Assembly (NCBI RefSeq): GCF_028369105.1
Contig: NZ_JAQNDO010000001.1
Span: forward strand, 5,920,501 to 5,984,500
Reading direction: 5' to 3'
Length of the DNA stretch: 64,000 bases
Source: Polyangium mundeleinium
GTDB taxonomy: Bacteria > Myxococcota_A > Polyangia > Polyangiales > Polyangiaceae
Shown here: piece by piece, positions 13,258 to 25,900 of the stretch
Layout of the letters: each line of letters opens with the position of its first letter
How positions within the stretch are numbered: the first letter of the stretch is position 1
The notes under the pieces: generated by a model
Database searches by the model: none
Told to the model about the DNA's origin: nothing
Seen by the model: the letters and a program-made list of their open reading frames with translations, nothing else
Translations under genes and position numbers: made by a program

Positions 13258-16200
13258 GTGAGCGAACAAATCGTGTATTTTCTTCGCGAGGACGTCCCGC
13301 TGCGCTCGATCTTCGAGGGCGTTCTCCGCGAGGGGTTTCAGATCGTGCGACGCGCGCCGCGCAAGGCCGATGCGCCGCCCTTCTGGAGCGTCAACATGGG
13401 CGAAGGGCGGCACATGGTGCTCGTCGATTCTCCCCTGTTCGGCGTCCGCTACATCGAATGGCGGAGCGGCAAGCCGATGCCCGCCTGGCTCGAATCGTCG
13501 GTCGTGCGTCGCTCGGTGGACGAGCTCGCGACGCGGGCGGAGGCGGCGAAGGCGCCTGAAGAGAAGATCGCCACGCTTTGCGAGGCCGTCGCTGTGGCGG
13601 CGCCGACGCTGCCCGACCGAATTCGCAGCGTGCTCGCGGCGAGATTACGCGACGGCGAGGAGGCCGTCCGCTTTATGGCGCACAAGGCCGTTGTGGCGCT
13701 GTCGGACGCGTCGCTGGAGCAGACGCTCGGCGAGATGCTCGCGGGCGGGCCCGTGCCCGAGGACATGCTGGCATGGGCGCGTGAGCTCCACGCGCTTGCA
13801 GAAAAAGCCGTGCGCGGCGATTTCATCGATGATCTCGATACGCAGAACGAAGATTATCTGCGCGACGCGCTCCGGCGTGATCTGACAGAGAAAAAATGGC
13901 GCCGCGTGGAGGTCGCCGCGGCGCGGCTCCTGTGGAAGGAGATGCCGCTCTACGAGCTCGAAGCGGCGGCCGCGTGGGCGCAGGCCATGGCGGCGACCGG
14001 GCGCGTCTGGAAGGCGTACTTCGCGGCGCTGCTCGTCTCGGAGATCGAGCGCTCGCGTGGGGAGGAAGGCCTCGCGGCCGTCGTGCGGGCCGAGATCGAG
14101 CCGACGCTGGCGTCGCGCGAGGATCTGCCGATCCGGGAGGATCTGCACCCGATCCTCTGGATCGTGCGGGACCGATTGAATGACGACTACACGGCGGCGT
14201 GTGATCGCGCGATCGACGCGATGGATGCGCACGTAAAGAACCTCGAGGCCGAGCGTGTTCTCTTTCGGGCGATCTCGCAGCGCAATGGCCCCGAAGGGCG
14301 GCCGCTCGCGAAAAAGCTCCGGGATCTCTTGCCAGGCGCGATCACGCCGCTCGCGCTCCTCACGTATCTGCATGAATCGGGCGATACGGGGGACGAGGCG
14401 CTCGCGGACGCCGAGGCGCTCGCGGCGGCGATGGCCCAGCGCGAGCTCGTGGCGAAAGGAAAGGCCGAGCCGCCTTCACCCGAGATCGCCTCGTTCGACG
14501 CGTGGGCCGAGGGGATCCTCGCGTACCAGGCGCGGAGGCCGAAGGATCTCATTCGCGAGCACATCCGGATCTTGCAGAAGCGCGGCGACAACGAGGGCGC
14601 CCTGCGCGCCGCCGAGCGCGCGATTGTCGCGGAGGACTCGGCCCTCGCCTGGATGGACAAGGGCTTCATCCTCACGTCGATGAAGCGCCACGCGGACGCG
14701 ATTGCGGCGTACACCGAGGCGATCGCGCGCGTCGACAAGGACGGCAAGGTGCTGCTCGGCGGCAGCTACGACGTCCTCTGGTTCAATCGGGCCTGCGAGC
14801 GCGCGATCACGGGCGATCACGAGGGCGCGCTGCGCGATCTCGCCATCGTCGTCGCGAAAGACAAGGAATGGATCGACAAGGCGCGGGCCGACGATTATTT
14901 CGATTCGGTCCGCGAAGATCCACGCTTCGAGGGGATCCTCGCGGGGACGTACGAGTTCCCGCCGGAGAGCGCGCCCTTCGATTGGAAGACGCTCGCCGAC
15001 CACGCGAAAGGGCTCTCGTTTCTCGGGCGGTACGAGGAGGCGATCGTGGCCGGGCGCGAGGGGCTGCGCAAGGCGGAAAAGGCGCTCGGGCCCGAGGATC
15101 CGGGCCTTGCGACGTGCCTCGAAAATCTGGGATTCGCCGCGACCTGGGGCGGCGAACCCCAGCAGGGCGTGGCGGCGCTCCGCCGTGCCGTTGCCATTCG
15201 CGAGCGAATCGACGCCGGCTCGCGCGAGGCCGGGGAGGCCTATCACCACCTCGGCAGCGCCCTCGGGATGACCGGGGATGCTGCGGGCGCCGAACTTTAT
15301 TACGGAAAAGCACTCGCGCTCCGGGAAAAACACGACGGGGTCGAGAGCGCGATGGCGGCGAAGAGCTGGGGCGATATGGCTGGCCTCTCGCTCGGCGCGG
15401 GCCGGAGGGACGAGGGGATCGAGCGGCTCCACCGCGCGCGGTCCATCCTCGAAAAGGTGATCACCGGGTTCGAGGGCGAGGGGCGGGCGGCGGACGACGA
15501 TTCGCTCGTCGAGGCGCGCGCCGATCTGCTCACGACGTGTACGAATCTGCTCGTCACGCGCACGCAGGGAGGCGAGCACGAGGCCGCGATCGAGGCGGCG
15601 CGGGGCGCGGTCGCGCAGGCGGTTCACCTGGGCACGCGCATCAATCCGAGGCTCCGCACCTCCATCGCGCAGACCTTGCAAGCGCTCGTGGAGCTGGGGA
15701 TCGAAGGTGCGCTCGATACCCTCGCGGCCCTGGCCGACGCGGTCATGCCCAAGGAGCCGGCGGAGGTCGTCGAATCGCGCGTTCGCTGGTCGCGTATTCG
15801 TTTGGGGCTGCAAGCGATGCGCGAGGCTGGCTTCGGTGACGAGGTGATTCTCGCGCGCCTCAAGGACGCGCTGCGGGGCGAGCCGCCGCCGCCCGCGGTG
15901 GCGCGTGTCGCAGGCGCGACCGAGGCGCTCTCCGGGTTTGTCCAGGAGATCTCCACGACCCAGGGCACAAACATCGTGGTCACGCTCATGGCGCTGCAAA
16001 CGGCGGAGGCAGGCGGCCGCACGCTCGACGAGACGCTGCACGACCTGCAAGAGCTCGCCATCAGCTCCGTCGCTGCCTCCGTCGAGAGCAAAGAGCCAAA
16101 AACGGAACAGGGCAAGGCCTCGCAGGTGAAGAGCGACGAGCCACCGCCCTGGGAGCGTGATCCGTTCGGCAATCCGTACCTTGACAGCGAGATGAATCGG

Positions 16201-23000: not shown

Positions 23001-23148
23001 GCCGCTCGGCATTGCGGTCGTCGGCGGGCTCGTGGTGTCGCAGCTCCTCACGCTCTACATCACGCCGGTGATTTACACGTACCTCGACGCGGCCGAGAAG
23101 CGGGCGCGCGAGGCGCTCGCCGAGCGGCGGGCGCGGCGGCTCGCGTGA
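20047..23148 (+). CDS. RND efflux pump inner-membrane subunit (HAE1, MdtB/MdtC-like)
   Basis: Proton-driven drug or lipid efflux pump of 1033 residues, the usual family length. N-terminal SRPFVLRPVMTTLSMLAIVI and RALPVSDLPNVDFPTIQVSA are typical of MdtB/MuxB-type pumps. Twelve membrane segments in two sets of six are separated by large periplasmic loops. The intramembrane proton-relay region GFVVDDAIVVLENIFRHLE carries the paired Asp, and the second half has GIVKKNAIMMIDFALEAER with the relay Lys. Translationally coupled to the adaptor. No outer-membrane TolC-type gene is in the window. Substrate unknown. Confidence 0.95.
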   Translation: MNVSRPFVLRPVMTTLSMLAIVIFGIAGFRALPVSDLPNVDFPTIQVSASLPGASPETMAAAVATPLERQFSTIAGIDSMTSTSGLGTTQIVLQFDLSRDIDAAALDVQSMISRAARDLPPNMPAPPSFQKVNPAEQPIMYLALYAETLPLSEVSEYAETTIAQRVSMIRGVAQVLVFGSQKYAVRIRLDPQALASRELGIDEVAAAVARENVNLPTGVLEGPARTYVVQASGELYRASAFRPIIVAYREGAPVRLEELGTVTDSVENDRVASHYDGKRAIVLAIQRQPGTNTVAVVDAVRALLPALRAEIPASVEVATLYDRSISIRESVADVEHTLLVTIGLVVLVIGIFLRDLRSTIVASVALPVSLIGTFAGMWALDYSLDNLSLLALTLCVGFVVDDAIVVLENIFRHLEMGKPPLRAALDGAGEIGFTVVSMTTSLVAVFVPVLFLGGIVGRLLREFAVTMSIAILVSGVVSLFLTPMLASRFLRRKKANEHETNDEVHAGPSGRMDRAYSKSLGFVLRHRFATLMASFVLLAGTIVLGVIVPKGLFPSEDTGQIFALTRAAQGTSFEAMRGYQAAAADIVRAHPGVASVMSSHGAGGPSGSGNTGRLFIRLKDRDERAGKKPEAIIAELRPELAKIPGLEVFLQNPPPIRLGGQLTRALYQFTLTGADVDELYDAATELEQAMRGIPGLIDVTSDLERRTPEATLVIDRDRAATLGVSAQSIEEALFSAYAGRQVSTIYAPTNQYRVILELDRRFTQDPSALGLLYVRSASGELVPLSAVSRTEEGAGPLSVNHLGQLPSVTISFNLAPGAPLGEAVARVSALARERLPDTIGTQFLGGAEVFRESVGGLGLLLVLAILVIYVVLGILYESFVHPITILSGLPSAGFGALLALLVLGQELNVYSFVGILLLVGIVKKNAIMMIDFALEAERRDGKPAAEAIVLGARIRFRPIMMTTMAALAGSLPIALGFGAGAESRRPLGIAVVGGLVVSQLLTLYITPVIYTYLDAAEKRAREALAERRARRLA

Positions 23149-23195
23149 AGTTCGTCTTGACGGGCGGACGTGGGTCGGGCGAAGTGACGAACGGC

Positions 23196-23783
23196 ATGAG
23201 AACGCTTACGGTCGCCCTCGTCCTCGGCCTTTGCGCAGGTTGCGCAGACCGAAACCAGCTCCGCGCGAAGTACGCGGGCGAGGCCGAGGAGAACCTGAAG
23301 AACGCCGTCGCGCGCGCGTACGAGGCGGGATACCTGACGCCGTTCGAGGTCCCCTCGCGGGAGGAACTGCCGCCGGGGATGCGGCCGCCGGACCCGTCGA
23401 CCGAGGCCCCCGAATCCGAGCGGCGGGCGCTCCCGCGCGCGGGGTGGCTCGAACAACGGGGGAGGGGCGCGCCTGTGCGGTTTTACGGTGAGGGTTGCAT
23501 GGTCGGCGACCATTGCGGCTGCGACGCGGCGCAAACGCATTTCTTCGGAAAAGCCTCGAACGGGATGGTCGTCGTCCTGGTGCCGCAGCCGGAGATGGAG
23601 ATCCGCACGCTGAACGGCCCGGAATCCGAGTGCGACCGTGGTTGCGGGGCGCAGGCGCCGCCGACGCCGTGGCGGGTGTACGAGCTGCCGGTCACCGAGC
23701 TCGATCTCGTGAGCGCAGTCGTGGTGCCGTTCAAGATGACCCGCGTCACGGTGCACTGCGAAACCCAGAATCCCATTCCGTGA
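23196..23783 (+). CDS. Cysteine-containing lipoprotein, paralog A
   Basis: 195 residues, function unknown. The open frame begins at 23145 overlapping the pump stop, but ATG 23196 starts a clean lipoprotein signal, MRTLTVALVLGLCAGC (Cys 16). A helical charged stretch (about 20-45) is followed by a Pro/Glu-rich spacer. A C-terminal domain has conserved cysteines: GEGCMVGDHCGCDAAQTHFF, then VVVLVPQPEMEIRTL, then ECDRGCGAQ. The next gene encodes the same layout. Position directly after the RND genes suggests co-expression with the pump, as an accessory envelope factor (inference). Confidence 0.8.
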   Translation: MRTLTVALVLGLCAGCADRNQLRAKYAGEAEENLKNAVARAYEAGYLTPFEVPSREELPPGMRPPDPSTEAPESERRALPRAGWLEQRGRGAPVRFYGEGCMVGDHCGCDAAQTHFFGKASNGMVVVLVPQPEMEIRTLNGPESECDRGCGAQAPPTPWRVYELPVTELDLVSAVVVPFKMTRVTVHCETQNPIP

Positions 23784-23791
23784 TTTTCATC

Positions 23792-24412
23792 ATGAGAACG
23801 TTCCCCATCGCCATTATCCTCCTCCTCGTCCTCTGCGCAGGCTGCGCGGGCGAGAAGCAGCTCCGCGCGGAGTCTGCCGTGGACGCGGCGAAGCTCCGCG
23901 CGGAGTATGCGACGAAGGCCGAGAAGAGCCTGAAGGAATCCCTCGCGCATCAGCACGAGACGCACGGCCTGAAGCCGGTCGACGCGCGATTCATCCGCCA
24001 TGTGTCGGTGTATGAGCGGCAGCCAAGGTCGACGCCCGAGCCGCCGTACAAGGAGCGAGTGCTGCCGAACGCGGGCGACCTCGTGCAGGGGAAGCCGGGT
24101 GACCGCGTCATGTTTTACGGCATGTATTGCTTGATCGGGTCGAGCTGCGGGTGCGATCTGGAGATGAAGTACTCCTTCGCCGAGAAGCCGGACGGGAGCG
24201 TTGTGATCCTGGTGCCCGCGCCGCAAAAGGAAGTCCACACGATCACGCACCCAGGCGCGTGCTCGTACGGCTGCGGGCAACCGAGCGGGAGCCCCGCGTT
24301 CACGATATGGGAGCTGCCGACCACCGATATCGATCACGTGACCGAGATCGTGGTCCCCTACGAGCTGCACATCGTCCACGAGACGTGCGAGAAGCCGATT
24401 CCCGCGCCGTGA
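23792..24412 (+). CDS. Cysteine-containing lipoprotein, paralog B
   Basis: 206 residues. ATG 23792 lies 8 bp after the stop of paralog A and starts MRTFPIAIILLLVLCAGC (Cys 18). It shares with paralog A the QLRAxx start of the mature chain, the charged helix, the Pro-rich spacer, and the cysteine pattern GMYCLIGSSCGCDLEMKYSF, VVILVPAPQKEVHTI, CSYGCGQPSG and a final HETCEKPIPAP (paralog A: HCETQNPIP). This is a clear tandem duplication with diverged sequence. The far end is convergent with the peptidase gene (6 bp between stops). No known family recognised. Confidence 0.8.
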   Translation: MRTFPIAIILLLVLCAGCAGEKQLRAESAVDAAKLRAEYATKAEKSLKESLAHQHETHGLKPVDARFIRHVSVYERQPRSTPEPPYKERVLPNAGDLVQGKPGDRVMFYGMYCLIGSSCGCDLEMKYSFAEKPDGSVVILVPAPQKEVHTITHPGACSYGCGQPSGSPAFTIWELPTTDIDHVTEIVVPYELHIVHETCEKPIPAP

Positions 24413-24418
24413 CGCGTT

Positions 24419-25900
24419 TCACGGGAACGAGAGCCCGAGCACGTAGGTCTCCCAGCGCTTCTTGAAGGCCGTCATGTCCTCCTCGCCGAGCACGCGGCGG
24501 AGGGTGTCGTAGCCCGTGGGATCCTTTTCGCGGTTCGCGTGAAACTCGTGGTAATAACGGACGAGCAGGCCCTTTTCCTGGAGGTAATACAGCAGGTAGC
24601 GCGAGGCGGCGTAATGGACGCCGTAGTCGCCCTCGTAAAACGCCCCGTCGTTCATCCCGGTGAGCGCGCGGAACGAGGGGACGCGGTTTTCCGCAATGGC
24701 CGATTGCAGGCCGCGCAAGCGCCAGTTCGTGTAGCCGTGGATCCGGCCTTCCTCCTCGCCGCTCTGCTCGTAGAGCGAGCCGAGTCCCTCGTTGAACCAG
24801 GGCGGGCAATCGGAAAAGTTTGCCTCGACGAATGGGTGCACGATCTCGTGCACGAGCGTGCCGCCGCCCGTCGCGATGTTCATGACGAGCGCGCCATGCT
24901 TCGAGGTGTAATACCCGTACGGCGTGGTCGGCTTCTCGCCGAAGAGCGAGATCGCGTTCCGCTCGTAACTCGGCCGGTCCTTGAAGAGCCAGACGACGAG
25001 GATCCGCGACGGGTCCTTGGCAAAATAGTCTTTCTTGAGTTTTTCGGTCGCCCAGCGGACGGTGCCTTCGGCGCCCCTGCGCACGTGAGGCTCGGGGCCG
25101 TCGCCGACGACGACGAACGGGGGCTCGACGAGGATGGTGAACTCGCCGCGCAGGCGCGAGGTCTTCTCCTTGACCTCTATCACCTTTTGCGCGTAATCAG
25201 CCGGGGAAAAACCTGGTTTGCGCGGCGTCGCCTTGGCGAGCTCGAGATCCCGCGGAGCGAGGCGCAGGCGGATCGCGGTCCACACGTCCTTGCTGTGTTT
25301 GAGCGGCCAGAGCGAGAGGAACCGCGCCCGCGACATGCGGCGGTACGCGCCCGCGTCCTCGGCGGGCTCGTGATAGATGATCTCGTCCCGCGACGAATCA
25401 TACCCGACGACGAGGCGGAAATGCTCCGTGGTCGTGGGGCTCTCGTTGTAATGCATGCAGACGATCGAGGGGATGCCCTTCTGCAGATCGGCGTGGATCG
25501 CGGCGAGCTCGGCCCCGAGTGCTTCGTCAGCCTTCGCGACGTCGATGCGGTACCAGACAGGCCCCGGGTCGAAGCCAACGGCCTCGACGGCCTGCTTGAG
25601 CTCAGCGGTGTACGCGCCGCGGCCGAGCGCCGGATCGAGGCCGGTCCTCGCGAAAATGTCGTCCTGATCGAGCGGGCGGCCGAGCCGCGCGAGGGCCATG
25701 GAGACACAAGCCTCGCCGCAAAAATCGGGCTTTTGTCGTACGTGCGGGATGCCTTCGAGGAGGACACTGGCGAGGTTTCCGCGGGCGAGGCCGAGCGGGG
25801 CCGGGGAGGCGACCTGCTCCGGCGGCGGGGGCGAGGAGCTACGATTGCAGCCGAGGAGGACGAGCGGGGCGAGGACGGCGAGGAGGCGAGCAGGGGGCAT
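24419..25900 (-). CDS. Lipoprotein with C39-like cysteine peptidase and HExxH metallopeptidase domains
   Basis: 493 residues. ATG 25900 gives a lipoprotein signal (LLAVLAPLVLLGC, Cys 18); the frame extends upstream without a signal. Domain 1 (about 48-215) has papain-like C39 features: Q56, FCGEACVSMAL with Cys 61, and HFRLVVGYD with His 160. The third position reads YHEP (about 177-179) where families usually have Asp-Pro. Domain 2 (about 250-493) has TLVHEIVHPFVEA (H351, E352, H355) and PWFNEGLGSLYE (E371), the gluzincin-type layout of peptidase-MA-like domains. Two different peptidase folds in one surface lipoprotein is unusual. Substrates unknown; it may process envelope or imported proteins. 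Confidence 0.85.
   Translation of the reverse strand: MPPARLLAVLAPLVLLGCNRSSSPPPPEQVASPAPLGLARGNLASVLLEGIPHVRQKPDFCGEACVSMALARLGRPLDQDDIFARTGLDPALGRGAYTAELKQAVEAVGFDPGPVWYRIDVAKADEALGAELAAIHADLQKGIPSIVCMHYNESPTTTEHFRLVVGYDSSRDEIIYHEPAEDAGAYRRMSRARFLSLWPLKHSKDVWTAIRLRLAPRDLELAKATPRKPGFSPADYAQKVIEVKEKTSRLRGEFTILVEPPFVVVGDGPEPHVRRGAEGTVRWATEKLKKDYFAKDPSRILVVWLFKDRPSYERNAISLFGEKPTTPYGYYTSKHGALVMNIATGGGTLVHEIVHPFVEANFSDCPPWFNEGLGSLYEQSGEEEGRIHGYTNWRLRGLQSAIAENRVPSFRALTGMNDGAFYEGDYGVHYAASRYLLYYLQEKGLLVRYYHEFHANREKDPTGYDTLRRVLGEEDMTAFKKRWETYVLGLSFP

Follow-up and report, generated by a model that had tools for sequence, protein, structure and literature searches.

Gene and domain layout

The window, as used here, is a 64,000-nucleotide stretch of the Polyangium mundeleinium genome. 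A minus-strand open reading frame within it encodes a 493-residue protein (P0001) that consists, in order, of a lipobox-like signal with its cysteine at C18, a low-confidence linker, a C39-like domain and a metallopeptidase-like domain (Table 1). A reading made from the letters alone, hereafter the sequence-only reading, had placed C61/H160 and H351-E352-H355-E371 in this one frame, and its numbering is exact for the ATG at 25900. Its description of a single exported protein that combines catalytic folds from two different classes is now backed by profile matches, predicted fold and conservation. Compared with two genus-mates, dN/dS is 0.20-0.22 in the C39 half and 0.12-0.24 in the metal half; because the values are low in each half and relatives from different phyla retain the residues of both sites, the combination of the two domains is not a chance observation. 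Q56 is presumed to be the oxyanion-hole Gln.

Table 1. Features of the peptidase gene, with positions in the window
Feature	Positions	Strand	Evidence
Gene for the 493-aa C39 plus gluzincin-like protein P0001	24419..25900	-	ATG 25900; stop 24419-24421; purifying selection in both halves
Presumed lipoprotein signal LLGC, residues 1-18	25847..25900	-	Sequence; genus-mates have LLAC, IVAC or VVSC there; loose pattern only
C39-like papain-fold domain, residues 43-220	25241..25774	-	PF13529 1.8e-10; VIA-align Z 16.6 to 8z4h, 16.1 to 9azl, 16.0 to 3erv
Q56, presumed oxyanion-hole Gln	25733..25735	-	Kept in 59/60 fused ORFs
C61, presumed nucleophile	25718..25720	-	Kept in 57/60 fused ORFs
H160, presumed catalytic His	25421..25423	-	Kept in 57/60 fused ORFs
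E178, presumed third catalytic residue (Glu)	25367..25369	-	Glu in 52/60, Asp in 8/60 fused ORFs
Gluzincin-like metallopeptidase domain (Peptidase MA / DUF1570 type, predicted collagenase-M9-like fold), residues 230-493	24422..25213	-	DUF1570 in 25/44 members; VIA-align Z 16.6 to 7esi
Predicted HEIVH zinc-binding motif, residues 351-355	24836..24850	-	H351, E352 and H355 each in 59/60 fused ORFs
E371, presumed third zinc ligand	24788..24790	-	Kept in 59/60 fused ORFs

The N-terminus points to export. LVLLGC at residues 13-18 fits a loose lipobox pattern and fails the strict one; the corresponding residues are IVAC in one genus-mate and VVSC in another. Among the 44 aligned members of the family (alignment A2, described below), 43 have a signal-like hydrophobic stretch near the chosen start, defined as a 12-residue mean hydropathy of at least 1.6. 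The loose lipobox pattern is found in 13 of the 44 and the strict one in four, P0001 not being one of the four. Judged by these patterns the lipobox is not general in the family. The earlier placement of the protein on the surface finds no support in these counts.

Distribution of the fusion

Relatives in which both domains lie in one frame occur in the genus and well beyond it. Among 59 near relatives, the full fusion is present in five of the six genus genomes (own included) and in two further family members. The sixth (G001), 99% complete, is the only sampled genus genome without a match to P0001. When 84,980 species genomes were scanned, at least 53 loci emerged, a lower bound since only two short peptide patterns were used, and 48 of them hold near-full-length relatives that span both domains. 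These come from Myxococcota, Planctomycetota, Verrucomicrobiota, Lentisphaerota and bins of other labels, and include complete genomes such as those of Minicystis rosea and Planctomycetes K23_9. Outside the genus, identity to P0001 is 47-61%, with one relative (L071) at 31%. Conservation was assessed across these 48 of the 53 loci and the window, leaving out L070, L072, L074, L075 and L077, which are broken, partial or limited to the C39 domain, but retaining L068 despite the break in its frame near the end. Alignment A2 comprises the window and 43 of the 48 relatives, its exclusions (L025, L027, L068, L071 and L073) being near-copies, broken in frame or metal-dead.

Even samples of two phyla give a measure of frequency, with the best few candidates per genome scored and the centre genome of each sample known beforehand to carry the gene. 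Eight of the 282 Myxococcota genomes (own included) carry both domains in a single frame, seven with both sites intact and one Cys-dead. The corresponding number for Planctomycetota is 10 of 294 among the matches listed: seven are fully intact and three have one dead site, and in one case the frame continues past the contig end. Whole-profile matches at E<=0.001, nearly all of them through the metal domain, are far more widespread, in 52 of the 282 Myxococcota genomes and at least 200 of the 294 Planctomycetota genomes. Some of the Planctomycetota metal-domain matches, for example those in G404, G528 and G547, lie in open frames of about 800-1000 residues, which may be further fusions or merely long open frames. 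The fusion had been called rare by the sequence-only reading; it is indeed uncommon in both samples, but with 48 two-domain relatives in several phyla it is not singular.

A mobile-element setting was considered and rejected: a search of phages gave no match, and the sole plasmid match covers only the metal domain, at 28% identity.

Conservation of the two active sites and choice of partner

The active-site residues were counted in 60 distinct proteins from 83 fused ORFs, a set that includes five near-identical genus members and two incomplete or disrupted ORFs (L130, which reaches the end of its contig, and L068). Both sites are intact in 56 of the 60, across several phyla, and one motif set is gone in the remaining four; the lack of conservation that would have counted against the sequence-only reading is confined to these four. 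All four metal residues are kept in 59. In three proteins (L108, L109 and L130) the Cys and His are missing while the metal site is intact, and one (L071) has lost the metal residues and kept the Cys site. Because loss is reciprocal, the two sites are not an obligatory relay. The L071 genome also holds a separate metal-domain gene with an intact motif about 13 kb from the fused gene (L129:162-1238 and 14406-16088), and this gene may take over the role of the dead metal site.

At the third C39 position, the 56 intact proteins have Glu in 51 cases and Asp in five. Of more distant C39_2 proteins, seven can be aligned here and have Asp-Pro, and others differ, which marks Glu as a trait of the clade. 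The Glu in place of Asp that was first remarked on in P0001 is therefore correctly read, as E178, and is a clade trait, no defect.

The two domains differ in how freely they occur apart. When the C39 profile is used alone, again with the best few candidates per genome scored, strong matches (E<1e-35) fall in fused ORFs without exception, three of three in 188 Myxococcota genomes and eight of eight in 199 Planctomycetota genomes; of these 11 in 387 genomes, one (L108) is Cys-dead. Weak matches are other C39_2-like proteins, and one stand-alone relative (L077; 27% identity, profile E 2.9e-14) is of intermediate strength. Close metal-domain relatives, on the other hand, also stand alone, in proteins without a C39 match, and in the flanks examined none of these unfused relatives has a separate gene of the P0001 C39 subfamily beside it. 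Of the two sites the metal one is kept more widely, and the C39 subfamily of P0001 was found almost only next to it. In a tree built by a quick method from 94 metal domains, with stars on 14 of its 91 inner branches, unfused rows are interspersed with fused ones and 13 changes are needed; the tree does not separate gain from loss of the fusion.

A second pairing of C39-like and metal domains

A further combination, new here, joins a second C39-like family to distant relatives of the metal domain. The two are fused in one genome (G031), where the papain-like domain of this family, different from that of P0001, precedes a distant metal domain (L019). In four Myxococcota genomes (G043, G050, G056 and G312) the C39-like gene lies directly behind a stand-alone metal-domain gene, and the stop of the one and the presumed start of the other overlap by four bases, GTGA or ATGA. 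These overlapping pairs are at L016/L168, L017/L166, L011/L169 and L184; the coupled C39-like gene of G056 (L169) is without its Cys/His part. Two more genomes (G027 and G029) have both genes on different contigs. The second C39-like family, at E 1.5e-11 or better, is found in six of the 59 near relatives, and all six also have the distant metal clan. That clan is present in 12 of the 59, six of them without a second C39-like match, and two weaker matches to the C39-like family (G024 and G013) come without the metal clan. In the even Myxococcota sample, 12 of 282 genomes match the second C39-like profile, strongly only in G043 and G312, both of which are adjacent pairs.

Profile-profile comparison (hhalign) aligns this second family with the C39 profile of the window gene through Cys and His, at 67% probability and E 5e-5. 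PF13529 matches two of its five members, at best with 1e-4. By eye, Asn can be assigned to the third position of the family, with Asp there in a single member. Fused proteins and overlapping neighbour genes in distant bacteria suggest that the two enzymes cooperate on a substrate. The sample is small and the genomes related, and the second pairing is for that reason a lead of some weight, not proof.

These observations bear on an alternative in which the relevant enzyme is the metal domain alone and the C39 domain is mainly a binding or positioning module, its active site kept in most lineages for a minor or regulatory cut such as self-processing. The uneven losses, three Cys-dead proteins with an intact metal site versus one of the reverse kind, fit such a division of roles, as does the existence of close metal-domain relatives without a C39 domain. 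However, a binding module would have no need of the Gln, Cys, His and acid that are kept together with the metal site in 56 of 60 proteins across phyla, and distant metal domains are again paired with a C39-like domain that has Cys and His, that of the second family. We consider it unlikely that the metal domain alone accounts for the protein.

Predicted folds and family assignment

An AlphaFold2 model of P0001 built with the 44 alignment rows contains both folds (mean pLDDT 92.4, pTM 0.87), and with these values the relative arrangement of the domains is predicted with confidence. For the N-terminal half, Peptidase_C39_2 (PF13529) is the best Pfam family, matching residues 50-180 with 1.8e-10 and 42 bits against a cut-off of 24; the same family matches all 44 aligned members at E<=0.01. 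The half has the Cys, the His and the acidic third residue that Peptidase_C39_2 requires, shares its Gln, and is predicted to have a papain-like fold, with Z of about 16 to C39 structures. It departs from Peptidase_C39_2 in that most members of the P0001 family have Glu as third residue and are fused to a metallopeptidase-like domain. The C39 family of ABC transporters (PF03412, the PCAT/LanT type) reaches 13.9 bits, under its cut-off of 22, and E<=0.01 in seven of the 44 members; unlike that family, P0001 is without an ABC transporter, there being no transporter domain among its Pfam rows. The NCBIfam models C39_PA2778 and flagellinolysin both leave P0001 far under cut-off.

Structure comparison of the predicted C39 half brings together PeiR, PCAT1, ComA and the C39-like 3erv at Z of about 15-17. 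In a second alternative, the papain-fold domain would be an isopeptidase or acyltransferase like the pseudomurein endoisopeptidase PeiR or phytochelatin synthase. PeiR (8z4h, Z 16.6) and phytochelatin synthase (2bu3, VIA-align Z 15.7) are tied with PCAT1 (16.1) and 3erv (16.0), and Guanylate_cyc_2 (PF09778) matches all 44 members at E<=0.01, with 25.9 bits on P0001 against a cut-off of 28.1. Tied folds do not distinguish between chemistries, though, and PF13529 is the only family that exceeds its cut-off on P0001. An isopeptidase or acyltransferase seems to us rather improbable.

The C-terminal half resembles DUF1570 and Peptidase_MA_2 in its HExxH and downstream Glu and in weak profile matches, both of them under cut-off on P0001: DUF1570 (PF07607) with E 0.039 and 14.7 bits against 22, and Peptidase_MA_2 (PF13485) with E 0.12 and 12.6 bits against 32.4. 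At E<=0.01 the two families match 25 and eight of the 44 aligned members. The predicted fold of this half is like those of the M9 collagenase peptidase domain (7esi, 4ar1) and M30 lugdulysin (7bb8), with VIA-align Z 16.6 to 7esi (rmsd 4.0 over 228 residues, 11-14% identity to M9) and Z 13.4 to 7bb8. P0001 differs from M9 collagenases in that low identity and in being without collagenase activator or collagen-binding domains. No collagenase family is found among its Pfam rows, and searches by sequence gave no convincing solved relative. We take the spacing to the third ligand to be shorter than in M9 and M30. HExxH with a downstream Glu and zincin-type PDB matches of the predicted model together mark the half as a putative gluzincin (clan MA) in the broad sense.

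Genomic neighbourhood

Two small, adjacent, paralogous lipoprotein genes lie on the plus strand at about 23145-23783 and 23792-24412. Their products have CGCD and further cysteine motifs, and neither has a Pfam match at E<=1. Beyond them, downstream of the peptidase gene and on the other strand from it, is an AcrB-type RND gene, and the RND efflux genes are syntenic within the genus among the matches listed. A glyoxalase-family gene lies upstream on the same strand, 128 bases from the peptidase gene. No RiPP genes were recognised beside the window gene by inspection of its neighbours, and a promoter and terminator scan gave results at chance level.

Across 53 loci (window included, genus counted once), only three neighbour clusters occur in three or more lineages: kinase-like ORFs in seven, ABC-ATPase-like ORFs in three and PAS-kinase-like ORFs in three, all named by eye. 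Distances to the peptidase gene vary between 0.5 and 4 kb for the kinase-like and the ABC ORFs, the PAS-kinase-like cluster adjoins the peptidase gene but its members differ, and no neighbour keeps a regular place across phyla at these loci.

The nearest candidates for dedicated substrates of P0001 would be the lipoproteins, which are paralogous, with 37% identity to each other, the second being convergent with the peptidase gene and ending 6 bases before the end of that gene. The window genome carries the pair, whereas G004 and G005 each carry one homologue there, and the fusion flanks of G002 and G003, like the remaining fusion loci examined, yielded no homologue. A role as dedicated substrates is accordingly very improbable, and the suggestion that the protein processes paired substrates finds no support, the pair being a single gene in two of the five genus genomes with the fusion and not found in two more, with no neighbour recurring at a regular place across phyla. 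A sequencing or reading-frame artefact, of which the few broken MAG copies (L068, L070, L072 and L074) might make one think, has next to no probability given 60 distinct fused ORFs, some in complete genomes, and purifying selection on both halves.

Proposed mechanism and significance

Our preferred reading, to which we give a probability of roughly 60%, is that P0001 works outside the cytoplasm as a two-site peptidase, its two activities coupled yet separable and directed at the same substrate class. The protein would be exported and, in the case of P0001, probably lipid-anchored. Its N-terminal domain would act as a C39-like cysteine endopeptidase by a Cys-His-Glu mechanism (C61-H160-E178), and its C-terminal domain as a zinc gluzincin-like peptidase in which H351, H355 and E371 would hold the metal and E352 would serve as general base on a zinc-activated water. 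The two sites, held in fixed relative position, would act on one envelope or extracellular substrate class, probably sequentially. We infer catalysis, the common substrate and the order of cuts from the features described above. Each site would perform its own chemistry, and with the chemistries independent, a lineage can drop or inactivate one of them.

A broader proposal, which we put forward tentatively and regard as possible, extends this reading to the recurrent pair of cysteine and zinc peptidase as such. The pair would be a single functional unit of the envelope, assembled at least twice and acting in two steps on a common substrate class; the two assemblies would be the fusion found in several phyla and, in Myxococcota, the genes overlapping by four bases together with the one fusion.

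To our knowledge, few proteins combine peptidase folds from two catalytic classes. The architecture of P0001 is apparently undescribed in the literature reached: outside subscription papers, no C39 plus gluzincin-like combination is described among the matches listed. It joins known folds in a conserved way and does not amount to an enzyme of a new kind. A comparable two-step process exists for lanthipeptides, where a C39 enzyme and then a protease of another class process one substrate in series (PMC10885120). That two-step removal of RiPP leaders, by a C39 PCAT and a second protease, resembles the present case in having two protease classes in series; it differs in that the proteases are separate proteins and the C39 part sits on a transporter.

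The family offers an unusually clear comparative case: the two sites persist together in several phyla, a few lineages have inactivated one or the other, and a pair of overlapping genes exists besides. Through it, the idea that a cysteine peptidase is coupled to a zinc peptidase in the bacterial envelope becomes testable.
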